A DNA stretch of 64,000 nt, from assembly GCA_009594865.1 (NCBI GenBank), contig VOPT01000051.1:1-64000 (forward strand), given 5' to 3'. The position numbers were made by a program, and so were the translations under genes. Each line of letters starts with the position of its first letter. The first letter of the stretch is position 1. Source of the DNA: Nitrospira sp. (GTDB taxonomy: Bacteria > Nitrospirota > Nitrospiria > Nitrospirales > Nitrospiraceae). The notes beneath the pieces are model-generated. The model saw nothing but the letters and a program-made list of their open reading frames with translations. It made no database searches and had not been told where the DNA came from. Shown here piece after piece: positions 20,785-54,583 of this stretch.

Positions 20785-21078
20785 ATCCCTGAAAAGTGTC
20801 TGTCAGAGCCAGTTTATAGCTAGTGATACTGCGCCGCCTGTATCCGAATAGTCGGAGCACTGTATCTGATTCGGAACAGTTCAGAATTGTTCACGCCCAT
20901 TGGCACTGGGCATTTCACCCGCTGAGTGCAGACTCCATCCGCGCAAGATCCCGCCATCCCTGCATCTTATCCCAGGTTTCTAAGCAAGCCGGTTGCCGTT
21001 GGATTCCTTACGCTACGCGCAAATATCCAACGGCACGGAACTTGGAAATGCTCTACGCGCTCGAAGAAAGGAGCGGAC
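20785..21078. other. 294-base intergenic region before pseudopilin cassette A
   Basis: No gene is recognised. Near the right end lies the sigma54-like element at 21031-21046. AAAGGAG at 21067-21073 is the ribosome binding site of the next gene. The region is less GC-rich in parts than the neighbouring genes and could hold activator sites, which I could not identify. Confidence 0.5.
21031..21046 (+). promoter_or_regulatory. Sigma54 (RpoN)-like -24/-12 element, pseudopilin cassette A
   Basis: CGGCACGGAACTTGGA fits the sigma54 consensus TGGCACG-N4-TTGCW at all but two positions: C for T before GG, and G for C in the -12 dinucleotide. The spacing GG-N10-GG is correct. Transcription would begin near 21057, giving a 22-base leader that contains the ribosome binding site. 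The -12 mismatch lowers confidence. Confidence 0.4.
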
Positions 21079-43156: not shown

Positions 43157-44950
43157 TCAGTGGCCGGGAATCCGAACCTGAGGTTTCTCGGCCTCTTCGG
43201 GGACATGAATCATGGATTGATTGGCCAGGAGAATGTAGCCATACCGCTCGAGCATGACCGGATATTCCATGGTTTCAAACGGCAATCGATTTCGCATGGC
43301 CGCCGGCAGGAGAATCAAGGTGCGACCCGGCTGGGTCAAATAGGGCTTAATGTTGGCCTCTTCACCTTTGGGCACGACGATGGCTTTTCGTTTGGCATAG
43401 AACACCAGGGAGGGGCGCGGCTGTCCATAGAGAATCAGCCGGTCGCTCGGGCCGAGATTCAACCCTGCGACATCGGCCAGCCGCTGCGGCGGGTCGATGA
43501 CAAAATGGTGGACCAGCGGAAACGTCAGTTGTGTGACGGCCAGGACTACCAGGGCTAAGGATCCTCCCGCGGCCCAGAAGGCGGCCGGCTTCCGAGTCTC
43601 GCTGAGCCCGAAATAGGCGACCAGACCCATCCCCACCAAAAAAATCGAAGCGATGGTATAGGGCCCCGGTCCGAGTGTGACCTGTCCGGCAAGAGGAAAT
43701 TCATCCACCAGCTTCACGGCGAATTTGGCGTACAGGGGCGGCAGGGACGCAAACGCGAGTGCCAGAATATAACCGACCGCCGTCATCATGTGGATGGCGC
43801 CGCGCAAGTGCGGCGCGGCATGGTCCGTTACGCAGCGATTCCAGAACGACGCCGTCAAGATCGCCGCGGCGGGAAACAACGGGCCGATGTAGTGCGGCAG
43901 ACGTGTTGAGGAGAGGCTGAAGAACACGAGCCCCCCCAGCACCCAGACGGCGGCAAACCACTCGAGGGCCTGTGAGGACGACGGGGAATCTGCACTCGGA
44001 CCCGGTGTGAATGCTCCAGCTTGTTTGGCCTCACGCCAGCTTCGATAGACTTGATACCAGGCAAAGGGCAAGAGGCCGCTCCAAGGAAAAAATCCCAGGA
44101 GGAACACCGGCAAATAGAACAGCAGCGTCCCGCCGTGTCCTTCCATGGCGCCAAAGAACCGACCGATCGTATCTCCTTGCGCGGAGGTCGTGTACCGTTC
44201 CCCATGCAGGTTCAACATCATGAGATACCAAGGGAGGGCCAGGGCGACGAAGAGCAGCAGGCCTGGAAGGAGACGTCCCTCGCGACGGAAGAGCGGCCAG
44301 GAGCGAGTCAGCCAGAGATAGAGTCCCACCGCCAACAGCGGAATCAGAAAACCGATCGGGCCTTTCGTCAACGTGGCCAGCGCCATGCCGATGTACAAGA
44401 ACCAGATCAAGTGGCGTTCACGCCCCTCTCCGTAGAGGCCGAGCCAGAACCCGTAGAGAGACAGTGTGGTAAAGAAGATCAACACGCTGTCGGTGAGTGC
44501 CATGCGACTGAGCCCGATGATTTCCAGATTCAGCAACAGCATGGCCGCGCCGAACAGGCCGATGACCGGTCCCCGGCAACGGGTCAGAAACAGATATTGG
44601 AGTAGGATCAATCCGAGACCGAACAGGGCGGACGGGAACCGCGCGGCGAACTCGTTGACGCCGAACAGGTGGTACGATCCGGTCATGAGCCAATACACGA
44701 AGACCGGCTTGGCGAAGCGCGGTTCGTAGTTGAAGGTCGGGCTGATGTAGTTGCCGGTTTCGTACATTTCCCGCCCGGCTTCCGCGTTGCGCCCTTCATC
44801 CCGATCGGTCAGCCCGAGGGAGCCGAGCCCGACGAAGAACAGCACCGCAGCCATCGCCAGCAGCAGCACGAGTGCGAGCGGCTGGACGGACCGGTCGATC
44901 GGCGCAGACACCTGCAAGGGGGGGAGCTCTCCGTTCATCTGTGGTTCCAT
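43157..44950 (-). CDS. ArnT-like membrane glycosyltransferase (GT39/PMT superfamily)
   Basis: The 597-residue protein has about 12 membrane helices. The first periplasmic loop carries LTDRDEGRNAEAGREMYETG, the acidic catalytic motif of ArnT/PMT-type transferases that use polyprenyl-phosphate sugars, and FAKPVFVYWLM follows. A soluble C-terminal part (about 480-597) is also seen. ATG 44950 overlaps the upstream stop (TAATG). The frame is open 129 codons further, but that part lies across the upstream gene. Together with the GT2 and LpxB-N-like genes it forms a lipid-linked sugar transfer cassette; the target (lipid A or another envelope lipid) is inferred. Confidence 0.88.
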   Translation of the reverse strand: MEPQMNGELPPLQVSAPIDRSVQPLALVLLLAMAAVLFFVGLGSLGLTDRDEGRNAEAGREMYETGNYISPTFNYEPRFAKPVFVYWLMTGSYHLFGVNEFAARFPSALFGLGLILLQYLFLTRCRGPVIGLFGAAMLLLNLEIIGLSRMALTDSVLIFFTTLSLYGFWLGLYGEGRERHLIWFLYIGMALATLTKGPIGFLIPLLAVGLYLWLTRSWPLFRREGRLLPGLLLFVALALPWYLMMLNLHGERYTTSAQGDTIGRFFGAMEGHGGTLLFYLPVFLLGFFPWSGLLPFAWYQVYRSWREAKQAGAFTPGPSADSPSSSQALEWFAAVWVLGGLVFFSLSSTRLPHYIGPLFPAAAILTASFWNRCVTDHAAPHLRGAIHMMTAVGYILALAFASLPPLYAKFAVKLVDEFPLAGQVTLGPGPYTIASIFLVGMGLVAYFGLSETRKPAAFWAAGGSLALVVLAVTQLTFPLVHHFVIDPPQRLADVAGLNLGPSDRLILYGQPRPSLVFYAKRKAIVVPKGEEANIKPYLTQPGRTLILLPAAMRNRLPFETMEYPVMLERYGYILLANQSMIHVPEEAEKPQVRIPGH

Positions 44951-45249
44951 TACGATTTGGTTGCCGGAGAGGCGGCGTCGGAGGCGCCCTGGTTCGGACG
45001 GTGAATGAGCATGAGATTCCGTACGTAGACGATACTGCCGATGCTCTGGCCGGCAATGAAGACCGGGTCCTGCCGATAGATCGCATAGGCAAGCGTGATC
45101 AACCCGCCGATCATGCTCATATACCAGAATGCCGTCGGTACGCGGCTTTCCGCATGGCGTTCGGAGGCGATCCACTGGACAACCCAGCGCATAAAGAAGA
45201 TCCCCTGCCCGAGGAATCCAATAATGATCCAGATAGTGTCGAGTGTCAT
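44950..45249 (-). CDS. LpxB N-terminal-like (LAB_N) small membrane protein
   Basis: The 99-residue protein begins MTLDTIWIIIGFLGQGIFFMRWVVQWI. It has three membrane helices and the LAB_N motifs RWVVQWIASERHAESRVPTAFW, YMSMIGG and AYAIYRQDPVFIAGQ. The domain is found at the start of some lipid-A-disaccharide synthases and as a free small protein next to ArnC/ArnT-like genes, where it may help flip or present polyprenyl-sugar lipids. It overlaps the GT2 gene by four bases (ATGA) and the ArnT-like gene by one. Confidence 0.88.
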   Translation of the reverse strand: MTLDTIWIIIGFLGQGIFFMRWVVQWIASERHAESRVPTAFWYMSMIGGLITLAYAIYRQDPVFIAGQSIGSIVYVRNLMLIHRPNQGASDAASPATKS

Positions 45250-46007
45250 GGGCGTGCGGGGGCTGGTGGTGTTCCGGTCGAGCGGTACTTGTAGCGCAGG
45301 CAGCGGTGCTGCATCCATCGCACGGCCACCAGGTCATAGAGGCCCTTGAAGAGACGGTTGCCCACGCCGTATTTCGACGTGCCCCGGGTGCGAGGATAAT
45401 GGCGCACCGGCACTTCGGTGACGGTGAATCCGTGCATCAGGGCGAGGGCGGGAAAGAACCGGTGCATACCCTCGAAGAGTTGCAGCTTGTCGACCACCGC
45501 TCGTCGAAACAGCTTGAGTGAGCAACCGGTGTCATGAACCCGGTCGCCGGTGACGGCGCTACGGACGCTGTTGGCGATGCGGGACGAAATTTTGCGTGTC
45601 AGATTGTCGTGCCGGTCTTTACGCCAGCCACAGACCAGGTCGTACTGCCGGATCAGCGGAAGCAGTGTGGCGATGTCCGCCGGATCGTTCTGCAGGTCGC
45701 CGTCGATGGTCATCACCAGGTCTCCGGTCGATTGTTTGAACCCGGCATCGAAGGCCGCCGACTGGCCGTAATTGCGGTCGAAGTGAAAGACCTTGACCCA
45801 GCGATATTGCGCGGCCAGGCCATCAAGGATCTCCGAACTCCCGTCCGTGCTGCCGTCGTCGATAAACAGCAGTTCGAACGGGGCCGATCGGGATTCCTCC
45901 CGGCTCTCCAGTGCTTTCACGAGTTGCTCTGTCAGGGGAACCAGATTCTCGCGCTCATCCTTGATGGGGATGACAACGGAAGCCCATGGGCGGGTCGCTA
46001 CAGTCAT
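45246..46007 (-). CDS. Family 2 glycosyltransferase, ArnC/DPM1-like
   Basis: The 253-residue protein has a GT-A fold with VVIPIKDERENL, LLFIDDGSTDGS, the metal-binding TIDGDLQNDP and RKDRHDNLTRKISSRIANSVRS, typical of polyprenyl-phosphate glycosyltransferases. It lacks the two C-terminal membrane helices of ArnC; that part is short and hydrophilic (KYRSTGTPPAPARP). It probably makes the lipid-linked sugar used by the ArnT-like enzyme encoded two genes later. The first gene of the cassette, it lies 113 bases after the ABC transporter gene. Confidence 0.9.
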   Translation of the reverse strand: MTVATRPWASVVIPIKDERENLVPLTEQLVKALESREESRSAPFELLFIDDGSTDGSSEILDGLAAQYRWVKVFHFDRNYGQSAAFDAGFKQSTGDLVMTIDGDLQNDPADIATLLPLIRQYDLVCGWRKDRHDNLTRKISSRIANSVRSAVTGDRVHDTGCSLKLFRRAVVDKLQLFEGMHRFFPALALMHGFTVTEVPVRHYPRTRGTSKYGVGNRLFKGLYDLVAVRWMQHRCLRYKYRSTGTPPAPARP

Positions 46008-46120: not shown

Positions 46121-47812
46121 CTATTCGATGATCGTCTGCCGATCGACATGAGTCGAGAAGGTCGGATCGTTCGAGACGAAGATGACCGACCAGGGCTCGT
46201 CTTTCGCGCAGAGCCGACGGAGCAGTCGTTCTCTTGTGGCGGGCAGCATATTGTGCAGGGTGCCATCGAAAATTAAGAGTTGCGGGCGGCTCACGATTGC
46301 GCGGGCGACCAGAAGGCGGAGAATCTGACCCATCGAGAGGTGGATCTCTCCACCGGAGACGCGGGTATTGAGGCCCTGCGGCATCGCATCAATGTCGTGG
46401 TCGAGCTCCACAAACCGCAGCGCCCATTGAAGATCCTGATACTCGATCGCGGGCCGACCCAGCGTGATGTTGTCTTCCAGCGTCCCGTCGAGCAGCGTGG
46501 GATGAGAATCCAGGATGAGGCCGCGCACCCGGCTGATGGAGTCGCGCCTCACTTCGGCCAGGTTCATATCGTTGTACCGGACAAATCCAGCCGAGGGTGG
46601 GTGGAGACCGGCCAGGACTTTCGCGAGGGCGGTTTTGGCTCTGTTGGTGCCGCACAGGATGGCGACTCTCTCTCCCGGAGCCACCTCCAGGGACACGTTC
46701 CGAAAAATCGGCAGGCCATCCTGCCCGCTGTAAGCAAGGCTCCGGCACGTCAGGCGAATGCCGGAGCCGCCGAATTGGGTTGCCGGCACGTCTTCTTTCG
46801 CGCCGTCCTCTTCGGTCGGCAGAGAGAACACGGCAGCCATCTCGCGGCAGGACACGAAGGTAAAAAACATCGCGACCATGCGCCGAGCCAAGGTGTCCAT
46901 ATTCAACAGCAGGTTGCCGACCAGCACCTCGGCGGCGGCAAATTGCCCGACCGTGAGTTCTCCATCGACGACCAAGAGCCCTGCCGTGATAAGTAGCCCG
47001 CTGTGCCCGGCAACCTGCCACAGCGCCGCCGCTTTGTATTGCCGGCCGGTGAGCGTATCGGAACGGCGCTGCCGGATTCGGGCATAGAGGCGAGTCAGCA
47101 TGTCGGTTCGGTCCAAGAGGTACGGGCTCTCCCCGGCCGCCCGCAGGTGCGGAAGATTCTGCGCGATATTTTGAATCCAGCCAAAGATCTCATAGTGCAG
47201 GCGAGACATTTCCAACGTGATAAAGAATCCACCCCGCCCAAAGAGGGTGAGCAACCCCACAAACCCGAGGATCAGCACCAAAATGTAGAGCACGAAGTAG
47301 GGATGGAACAGGATCAGCATAGTCATCCCGATGGTGCCGACCACAGCGACATTAAAGAGATCCGCCACCATTGCGACCAGGGCGCGCGTCAACAGATCGG
47401 CCTCCATGAACCGGTAGGCTTGCGGCGTGGCGAACGTGTCGTCCCGAAGACGGGGCAGGAGGCGAGTGAAGGCGATGGCAACGCGCGTGTAGATCCGCTG
47501 TTGCAGCGTCTCCACGGCGCGCGCCTGCAGTACCCGAAAGGCCGCGACGCCGGTCAAGGAACTGGCGACGAACAGCGCCAGCGTAAAGATCATGCGGGGT
47601 TCCATGGCGAAGGAGAACGTACTGACGAGTTCCTGGACGGCGATGGGCACGCAGAGCAGGAAGCACCCAATGGCCACCGCATACGAGGCGATGATGCCCA
47701 GGATCGAGCGCTCCAGTTTCAGCAAGATGCCGAGGTGGGCGAAGATATCGCGGAGGACTTCAGTGCGCTGATACTGAGGGTAGCTCGGGGTGGTCGTGGG
47801 GGACTGGGGCAC
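46121..47812 (-). CDS. ABC exporter half-transporter with degenerate nucleotide-binding domain
   Basis: The 563-residue protein has the normal half-exporter layout, six membrane helices (about 40-320) then an ATPase-like domain (about 345-563), in one unbroken frame. Key ATPase motifs are altered. The Walker A region is CGTNRAKTA, keeping the Lys-Thr but not the three glycines. The Q-loop Gln is replaced (LDSHPTLLDGT), and the signature is LSMGQ. Walker B is LLIFDGTLHN (catalytic Glu to Gly), and the H-loop is VSNDPT (His to Asn). It is probably a weak or dead ATPase. The GTG start lies just downstream of a hairpin that covers its ribosome binding site. Confidence 0.88.
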   Translation of the reverse strand: MPQSPTTTPSYPQYQRTEVLRDIFAHLGILLKLERSILGIIASYAVAIGCFLLCVPIAVQELVSTFSFAMEPRMIFTLALFVASSLTGVAAFRVLQARAVETLQQRIYTRVAIAFTRLLPRLRDDTFATPQAYRFMEADLLTRALVAMVADLFNVAVVGTIGMTMLILFHPYFVLYILVLILGFVGLLTLFGRGGFFITLEMSRLHYEIFGWIQNIAQNLPHLRAAGESPYLLDRTDMLTRLYARIRQRRSDTLTGRQYKAAALWQVAGHSGLLITAGLLVVDGELTVGQFAAAEVLVGNLLLNMDTLARRMVAMFFTFVSCREMAAVFSLPTEEDGAKEDVPATQFGGSGIRLTCRSLAYSGQDGLPIFRNVSLEVAPGERVAILCGTNRAKTALAKVLAGLHPPSAGFVRYNDMNLAEVRRDSISRVRGLILDSHPTLLDGTLEDNITLGRPAIEYQDLQWALRFVELDHDIDAMPQGLNTRVSGGEIHLSMGQILRLLVARAIVSRPQLLIFDGTLHNMLPATRERLLRRLCAKDEPWSVIFVSNDPTFSTHVDRQTIIE

Positions 47813-47814
47813 AG

Positions 47815-47847
47815 TAACTCCTACCGCGTGGGCGCTGGTAGGAGTTA
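47815..47847 (-). promoter_or_regulatory. Hairpin sequestering the Shine-Dalgarno of the ABC gene
   Basis: A perfect 11-base inverted repeat (TAACTCCTACC at 47815-47825 and its complement at 47837-47847) lies directly before the GTG start at 47812. In the leftward mRNA the 3' arm contains AGGAG, 5 bases from the start codon, and the 5' arm contains the complementary CTCCT. GCG and CGC inside the loop can add three more pairs. The ribosome binding site would be blocked when folded. There is no T tract, so it is not a terminator. Confidence 0.65.
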
Positions 47848-48022
47848 TCAGCCGTGCGGGGATCGCAACCGGCGGTTCTCGGTGAACTCCATCACCTGAG
47901 AAAGGCGCAAAGCTGGGCGAAGTCTAGACCGAGAGCCGGTCCGTCGTCAACACAAGGTCCCTTGGGCACGAGACGATCCGGGGATCGTCAGGATGCCGGC
48001 GGCGCAATTGTTCCCCGTCCGA

Positions 48023-48754
48023 TCAGCGAAGGAAGAGAGATTTGAAGATCAAGGCCGTGCCGGACACAAATAGAAAGGCGGCGAACGTGGCCCGGTATCG
48101 TTCCGTGCTCATCTTGCTATAGAGCAAGAGCTCGGTCGCCAGGAACATGCTCACCCCTACGGCCATATACAGGGCCGTGGTGGATGTGACAATGGCCGAA
48201 GGTCCCAGGGACATGCTCAGCGTCATGAGCTGAAACAGCGCGAAGGTGCCATAGGAGACCGCCGTTGTCGCGCGGGTCTGATCCTTGTCGTACGGTTTGC
48301 TGTGGATCATGGCCGTCAGCAGCGAACCACCCAGATTGGTCAGACCGTGGACGATGCCCATCACGGTGAAATACGTGCGTTCATATCGCACCAGCGATTC
48401 GATCAATCGGTTGAACGGCCCATAGACACTCTTGAGCGCCGCGACGATCAGGAACAGGCCAACAATGCTGCCGATGTTCAGCTTGAGCGTCGTGACCAAC
48501 AACAGACAGAGCACCATGCAGGGGATGGACAACGTCAGGATCTGACAATAGAACGGCCAGTGAATGGACCGGTAGTCCTTGCTCACTTGCAGCACATTGA
48601 TCGTCAGTGAGATCGGAAGCAGAATGGTCAGGGCGGTGATGAAGTCATAGCCCAGCATGAGAAGGATCGGGGTGCCGAAGAGCAACACGCCCACGCCGAA
48701 GAGCGACTGAATGGTGGCCGTGAGGAGGATGGTGGCGAGCATATCCCATTGCAT
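48023..48754 (-). CDS. TauE/SafE-family membrane transporter
   Basis: The 243-residue protein has about eight hydrophobic helices, with the two-fold repeat typical of TauE/SafE exporters (FGVGVLLFGTPILLMLGYDFITALTILLP, then VHGLTNLGGSLLTAMIHSKPYDKDQTRATTAVSYG). The family exports sulfite, sulfoacetate or other small organic anions; the substrate here is unknown. I chose ATG 48754, preceded by AAAGGAG 10 bases upstream, rather than the 33-codon longer frame. It precedes the ABC gene by 210 bases in the same direction. Confidence 0.85.
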   Translation of the reverse strand: MQWDMLATILLTATIQSLFGVGVLLFGTPILLMLGYDFITALTILLPISLTINVLQVSKDYRSIHWPFYCQILTLSIPCMVLCLLLVTTLKLNIGSIVGLFLIVAALKSVYGPFNRLIESLVRYERTYFTVMGIVHGLTNLGGSLLTAMIHSKPYDKDQTRATTAVSYGTFALFQLMTLSMSLGPSAIVTSTTALYMAVGVSMFLATELLLYSKMSTERYRATFAAFLFVSGTALIFKSLFLR

Positions 48755-48877
48755 GGCAACAACGCTCCTTTCGACCCGACTGCGCTCGAACGGCCCGACG
48801 CTCAGCCTTTGCGGCGGTAGACGGGTATAGCCCAGCGCTGGAGTGGTCGTCAATCGGGCTGAAACGGGCGGGTGTGG

Positions 48878-54486: not shown

Positions 54487-54545
54487 CCAGCCCTCTGGTG
54501 ACCTTCGAGGTGTGAGGGGAGATCCCCCGTCTGTCTCGACGTCTG

Positions 54546-54583
54546 AAACCCCGCCGGGTGATCCCCGGCGGGGTTTCTCTTTT
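54546..54583 (+). terminator. Rho-independent terminator after the porin operon
   Basis: A 13-base-pair perfect GC-rich stem (54546-54558 with 54564-54576) has a 5-base loop TGATC and is followed by CTCTTTT. It closes the transcript that includes the porin and the small exported protein. Confidence 0.9.

Follow-up and report, generated by a model that had tools for sequence, protein, structure and literature searches.

The window analysed here, a stretch of 64 kb of Nitrospira DNA, carries on its reverse strand a gene for an ABC exporter-like protein, which is preceded by a structured leader and followed by two glycosyltransferase genes (Table 1). The gene order ABC-GT2-PMT was kept in most relatives. 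Upstream of the leader, the reading frame at 48023-48853 (-) resembled by eye a TauE/SafE-like membrane protein and was syntenic in many relatives; no match to it was found in Pfam or NCBIfam.

Table 1. Features of the ABC-like gene, its leader and the adjoining genes (window coordinates)
Feature	Position	Strand	Evidence
-35 element TTGACG	47945..47950	(-)	Invariant in 21/21 genus orthologs; consensus scan match, 0.1 expected
-10 element TAGACT, 18-nt spacer	47921..47926	(-)	Near-invariant CTA.ACT in 21 leaders; consensus scan
Fluoride riboswitch aptamer, Rfam RF01734, full length 1-64	47832..47905	(-)	53.3 bits, E 5.8e-12 in window
Aptamer hairpin GGUGA-U-GGAGU-UCACC	47881..47896	(-)	5 stem pairs and pseudoknot pairing unbroken in 26/26 sequences
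Second aptamer helix, GCCG (47873-47870) with CGGC (47854-47851)	47851..47873	(-)	89% of cells paired, pair changes present
Switch strand ACUCC	47841..47845	(-)	Pairs with aptamer loop (predicted fluoride-bound form) or SD GGAGU (predicted apo form)
SD-sequestering hairpin (putative expression platform), 11 + 3 pairs	47815..47847	(-)	Complementarity, folding energy, conserved core
Ribosome binding site AGGAG	47818..47822	(-)	Leader sequence; nearly every direct ortholog has TAGGAG 5-8 nt ahead of its start codon
ABC exporter-like protein of 563 aa, nucleotide-binding motifs degenerate; start GTG 47812-47810	46121..47812	(-)	Pfam ABC_tran E 1.3e-12
Gene of glycosyltransferase family 2, perhaps co-transcribed (gap of 113 nt)	45246..46007	(-)	Pfam
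PMT-family glycosyltransferase ORF, probably with its true start further inside; may be a distal member of the operon	43157..45337	(-)	Pfam, synteny

The original prediction had described an 11-pair perfect hairpin with AGGAG in its 3' arm just before the GTG start, a loop able to add three GC pairs, and a fold that would block translation. The arms (47815-47825 and 47837-47847, 11 nt each with 11 nt between them) were indeed 100% complementary, and the three extra GC pairs (47835-47833 with 47828-47826), which lie past a bulged A, gave 14 pairs. In-silico folding of this hairpin yielded -20.5 kcal/mol at 37°C, and the SD was fully paired in the predicted apo leader, in agreement with a block of translation. 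A true start codon elsewhere had been named as a refuting case, but the position of the start codon was conserved in relatives. A count of perfect hairpins (stem >=11 bp, loop 3-20 nt) gave 3 places in the 64-kb window compared with 0.5 expected from dinucleotide shuffles, and owing to this excess the placement of a hairpin exactly on the ribosome binding site is not ascribed to chance; the hairpin was also present in all 21 orthologs of the genus. The 181-nt leader as a whole folded better than its shuffles (z -2.6).

A scan of the whole window with Rfam gave only 2 matches, a tRNA and a fluoride riboswitch aptamer, the latter well above the curated gathering score of 34 bits for RF01734 and the sole match of this model in the genome of the window. 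The loop of the aptamer hairpin, GGUGA-U-GGAGU-UCACC, holds the 5' strand of the pseudoknot (GGAGU, 47890-47886), and its pairing with ACUCC at 47845-47841 was 100% retained in 26 sequences, with a change from A-U to G-U in 5. The same ACUCC is also complementary to the ribosome-binding GGAGU at 47821-47817. The hairpin thus forms one element with the aptamer, its 5' arm overlapping the 3' end of the aptamer. As ACUCC is common to the pseudoknot and to the 5' arm of the sequestor, the two pairings are mutually exclusive, and as it pairs with both GGAGU sites, the aptamer loop imitates the SD. A full-length score above the gathering score, the pseudoknot and a 3' strand shared with an exclusive platform were all found at the locus. 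Linkage to fluoride-response genes (CPA2 antiporters, enolase, universal stress protein) was found in relatives, but none of these three genes occurred in the operon of the window itself. Judged by its sequence, the leader RNA is a further member of a known riboswitch class and ordinary for that class.

The predicted promoter with TTGACG at 47950-47945 was conserved in relatives, and its -10 element was assigned to TAGACT at 47926-47921. In other genera of the family TTGACG was likewise present, followed by TATATAAG at the place of the -10 element. From this promoter, transcription would start near 47914, just upstream of the aptamer. Initiation downstream of the 5' arm of the hairpin, the other refuting case, is at variance with this conserved promoter, which lies upstream of that arm. 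A second inverted repeat had been proposed as the other half of a leader built in two parts. The repeat exists, but its upstream arm (47928-47938) lies between the -35 and -10 elements, so that the transcript would not be expected to contain it, and it was not conserved; the other arm (47883-47873) belongs to the aptamer. The repeat was therefore rejected as a leader element. The idea of a regulated leader in two parts was retained, with the hairpin as the putative switching half.

The conservation of the leader was examined in 29 genomes of the genus Nitrospira, including Ca. N. defluvii; N. moscoviensis belongs to another genus of the family. The orthologous ABC gene was present in 21 copies in 20 of these genomes. 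In 21 of 21 cases RF01734 was located directly upstream of the gene, and all 21 also had the competing arm on the 3' side, TAGGAG, which is complementary to the switch strand. These leaders had a mean identity of 70% (minimum, 51%), and the conserved blocks largely coincided with the -35 element, the -10 element (CTA.ACT), the aptamer and the 3' arm of the sequestor. In other genera of the family, ABC orthologs with 58-69% identity were found in 13 genomes, and the aptamer was directly upstream in 9 of the 13. Elsewhere the leader was broken by Ns past the 5' half of the aptamer (G046) or lay beyond the contig end (G122), while the ortholog in G042 had two aptamers 4.7-5.4 kb upstream on the same strand. 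The ortholog in G093 (L126) had no aptamer on its contig; short GTGATGGGTGATGAG-type repeats occupied the place of the aptamer, while the 3' arm of the hairpin and a T-run were still there, a pattern that points either to riboswitch loss or to misassembly. Altogether the riboswitch preceded the same ABC gene at 30 Nitrospiraceae loci.

Relatives were also compared for compensatory base changes, as the original prediction had proposed, using an alignment of 27 sequences. The core of the sequestor, CUCCUAC/GUAGGAG, was paired in all sequences; the loop-proximal pairs were conserved as well, the outer 3 pairs (UAA/UUA) were not. Two-sided changes were present at 2 loop-proximal positions (4 two-sided cells), but in the control one slide of the register (-2) outscored the true register in such changes. 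The 7 core pairs showed no variation in any aligned sequence because the aptamer, the hairpin and the SD all make use of them, and covariation consequently lends the sequestor only modest, thin support. The weight of the evidence lies in the identity of the aptamer and in the retention of a complementary arm outside it.

Terminator-type fluoride riboswitches are described as working by the same kind of overlap, between the pseudoknot and the base of the hairpin (PMC11077080). Translational fluoride riboswitches have also been described (PMC13273304, PMC8814607). With the published terminator-type logic (PMC11077080) applied to the leader of the window, the RNA is best read as a fluoride riboswitch acting as a translational ON switch with an apo hairpin that buries the SD, a reading to which we assign a probability of about 0.88. 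In the absence of fluoride, the nascent ACUCCUACC strand would leave the aptamer pseudoknot and pair with GGUAGGAGU, and this pairing would bury the ribosome binding site in the 14-pair hairpin. With Mg2+ and fluoride bound, the pseudoknot between loop GGAGU and ACUCC would be locked and the GGAG of the SD free, and the ABC-like protein would be made, perhaps together with the downstream glycosyltransferases. In silico, the probability that GGAG of the SD is unpaired rose from about 0 to 0.11-0.98 when the aptamer helices were enforced and the switch strand and the loop were blocked. As the hairpin is very stable, release of the SD would have to be kinetic. The sequences show the identity of the aptamer, the exclusive pairings, the conservation, the promoter and the gene linkage; fluoride binding, the direction of control and these kinetics we infer. 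Several relatives have a U-run after the hairpin, and in them transcription termination may supplement or replace the control of translation.

The same aptamer could instead govern a hairpin that is mainly an intrinsic transcription terminator, its cover of the SD being incidental. Other fluoride riboswitches of the same genomes do have a CUCCUA...UAGGAG hairpin followed by 6-9 T (L028, L030, L062, L064, L124), a few ABC leaders are T-rich after the hairpin (L015 with six T, L008, L083/L091), and N. moscoviensis (L134) has an extra hairpin and a T-run between aptamer and gene. In the window, however, the stem is followed by TTACTGTG, which contains no U-run, and a terminator scan reported no terminator there, so that an intrinsic terminator was rejected for this leader. 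In most genus orthologs, moreover, no more than 3 consecutive T come right after the stem, and the start codon follows 5-7 nt past the hairpin. Termination as the main function of the hairpin is accordingly considered unlikely, and the same stem appears to serve as a terminator or as an SD sequestor depending on the leader. In L123 (G131) and L134 (N. moscoviensis) two hairpins succeed each other after the aptamer, the second being a terminator with a T-run; both hairpins of G131 use CUCCUACC/GGUAGGAG, which results in four interchangeable arms.

The regulators suggested by the original prediction, a rise in temperature that melts the stem and frees the SD or a protein that binds the hairpin, did not hold up. 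The SD sits in a simple hairpin as in an RNA thermometer, but this stem is perfect and contains GC pairs. In folding simulations from 15 to 90°C the SD was unpaired with a probability of <0.01 up to 60°C and still low at 80°C, and the hairpin was predicted to stay closed beyond 80°C. A thermometer would also leave the conserved aptamer sequence upstream unexplained, and it was rejected as having hardly any probability. Autoregulation by a bound protein is compatible with the geometry of the leader but very improbable: loop sequence and loop length of the hairpin vary among relatives, and the fluoride aptamer, which the 5' arm overlaps, fully accounts for the conserved upstream element, so that no protein ligand is needed and none is assigned on present evidence. 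The palindrome might finally be a chance or mobile repeat without a regulatory role, as the window has two more perfect hairpins of like size (54545-54577 and 20994-21035). Against this, the leader is present as a single copy in the genome, which led to the rejection of a mobile or repeated element, and the hairpin occurs at the same position before the same gene in the 30 orthologous loci; a chance origin is given next to no weight.

The controlled gene encodes a protein with significant matches to type I exporter profiles but no match to Pfam ABC_membrane. A functional ABC ATPase was defined by a Walker A motif GxxGxGK[ST], an Asp-Glu in Walker B, the signature LSGGQ and a His in the H-loop. 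In comparison with P-gp and relatives, the protein of the window has CGTNRAKT as Walker A, LLIFDG as Walker B, LSMGQ as signature and FVSNDP as H-loop. Similar motif losses were present in all ABC orthologs examined, and the protein is, as far as these motifs tell, apparently ATPase-dead. An AlphaFold2 model reached a mean pLDDT of 48.5 and was usable for the succession of helices and strands only. With a cut-off of E <=1e-180, a search of 395 genomes of the phylum detected the subfamily only in the family of the window, the Nitrospiraceae. Tandem ABC paralogs with 46-54% identity were degenerate, too, and had no riboswitch. At 126-132.7 kb of the contig of the window (L066:8018-14677), two tandem degenerate ABC half-transporters adjoin TolC-like and HlyD-like genes, a set that may represent type I-like secretion without an obviously active ATPase.

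In some relatives the genes that follow the riboswitch-ABC unit as its operon partners encode a universal stress protein, one or two CPA2 cation/proton antiporters and, in part of these relatives, enolase; in others GT2 and PMT genes came next as in the window. Further RF01734 aptamers were present in the CPA2/enolase clusters of some relatives. Genes for antiporters and for enolase count among those recognised as linked to fluoride riboswitches (PMC11139923). The product of the ABC-like gene is most likely part of the response to fluoride stress. Fluoride gene islands with five RF01734 aptamers (L062/L063; G003 contig 17, 236-268 kb) and with three (L064; G016 contig 25) combined riboswitch-ABC units with CPA2 antiporters, universal stress protein, enolase, phosphoglycerate mutase and MFS/EmrB efflux genes, and a dynamin-like GTPase was located near one of the aptamers.

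The genomes with this gene mostly had none of the known fluoride exporters. No CLC protein was detected in 175 genomes of the family, while control genomes were positive. Intact CrcB was present in only 2 of the 29 genus genomes, both without the riboswitch-ABC unit, and one genus genome with the ABC gene had a CrcB fragment with a stop. Close CPA2 homologs occurred in 7 of the 29. Sixteen of the 20 genus genomes with the ABC gene lacked all three, an intact Fluc/CrcB, a CLC and a close CPA2 antiporter. In the family as a whole, the ABC ortholog and intact CrcB occurred together in 1 of 33 genomes compared with 6.5 expected (p 0.0006) when labels were shuffled within genera, a test in which the genus assignment is approximate for a few genomes and kinship within genera is not fully corrected. 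CrcB was present in 8 of 69 Nitrospiraceae genomes with any fluoride riboswitch but in 57 of 106 without one (175 genomes). As any fluoride riboswitch shows the same exclusion of CrcB, this is not a peculiarity of the ABC gene; inducible non-Fluc and riboswitch-free Fluc strategies would seem to be mutually exclusive. The distribution suggests that the ABC protein may stand in for the usual fluoride exporters. Tentatively, the degenerate ABC-like protein could be the main fluoride-resistance factor where Fluc and CLC-F were lost or never present, functioning as an exporter or channel without canonical ATP hydrolysis and switched on by fluoride via the riboswitch; this is a possibility of rather low probability.

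A literature search gave nothing that links a fluoride riboswitch with an ABC transporter or with Nitrospira, the gene lists of the discovery papers lying outside this search. Targets of fluoride riboswitches have led to new fluoride exporters before, namely the EriC-type CLC proteins (PMC7266159), and for that reason the ABC-like gene is a concrete lead for another one in environmentally important nitrite oxidisers. As a candidate fluoride-response gene, the riboswitch-linked ABC-like protein is of more interest than the RNA, and what deserves to be followed is the association of this degenerate ABC family with genomes that mostly have no known fluoride exporter. The leader family also has one hairpin that is apparently used as SD sequestor or as terminator in different leaders.

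The aptamer of the window resembles the RF01734 class in both helices, the conserved loop and the pseudoknot between loop and 3' strand, and as in the fluoride riboswitch of B. cereus the switch strand is shared with a downstream hairpin (PMC8752731, PMC11077080). In contrast to the class, the platform covers the SD and does not end in a U-run, and the aptamer precedes an ABC-type gene instead of crcB, eriC/CLC-F or an antiporter. With the translational fluoride riboswitches of Pseudomonas syringae and Burkholderia pseudomallei (PMC13273304) the leader shares the lack of a terminator and, as predicted, control at translation, but it comes from another phylum and another gene, and its long perfect sequestor is similar to a terminator stem without the U-run. 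The controlled protein has the layout of a half-transporter, with six long predicted helices followed by a nucleotide-binding domain, like the type I ABC exporters HlyB/LssB, PCAT1 and P-gp, but unlike in these exporters the glycines of Walker A, the catalytic Glu, the signature glycines, the Q-loop and the His of the H-loop are replaced.
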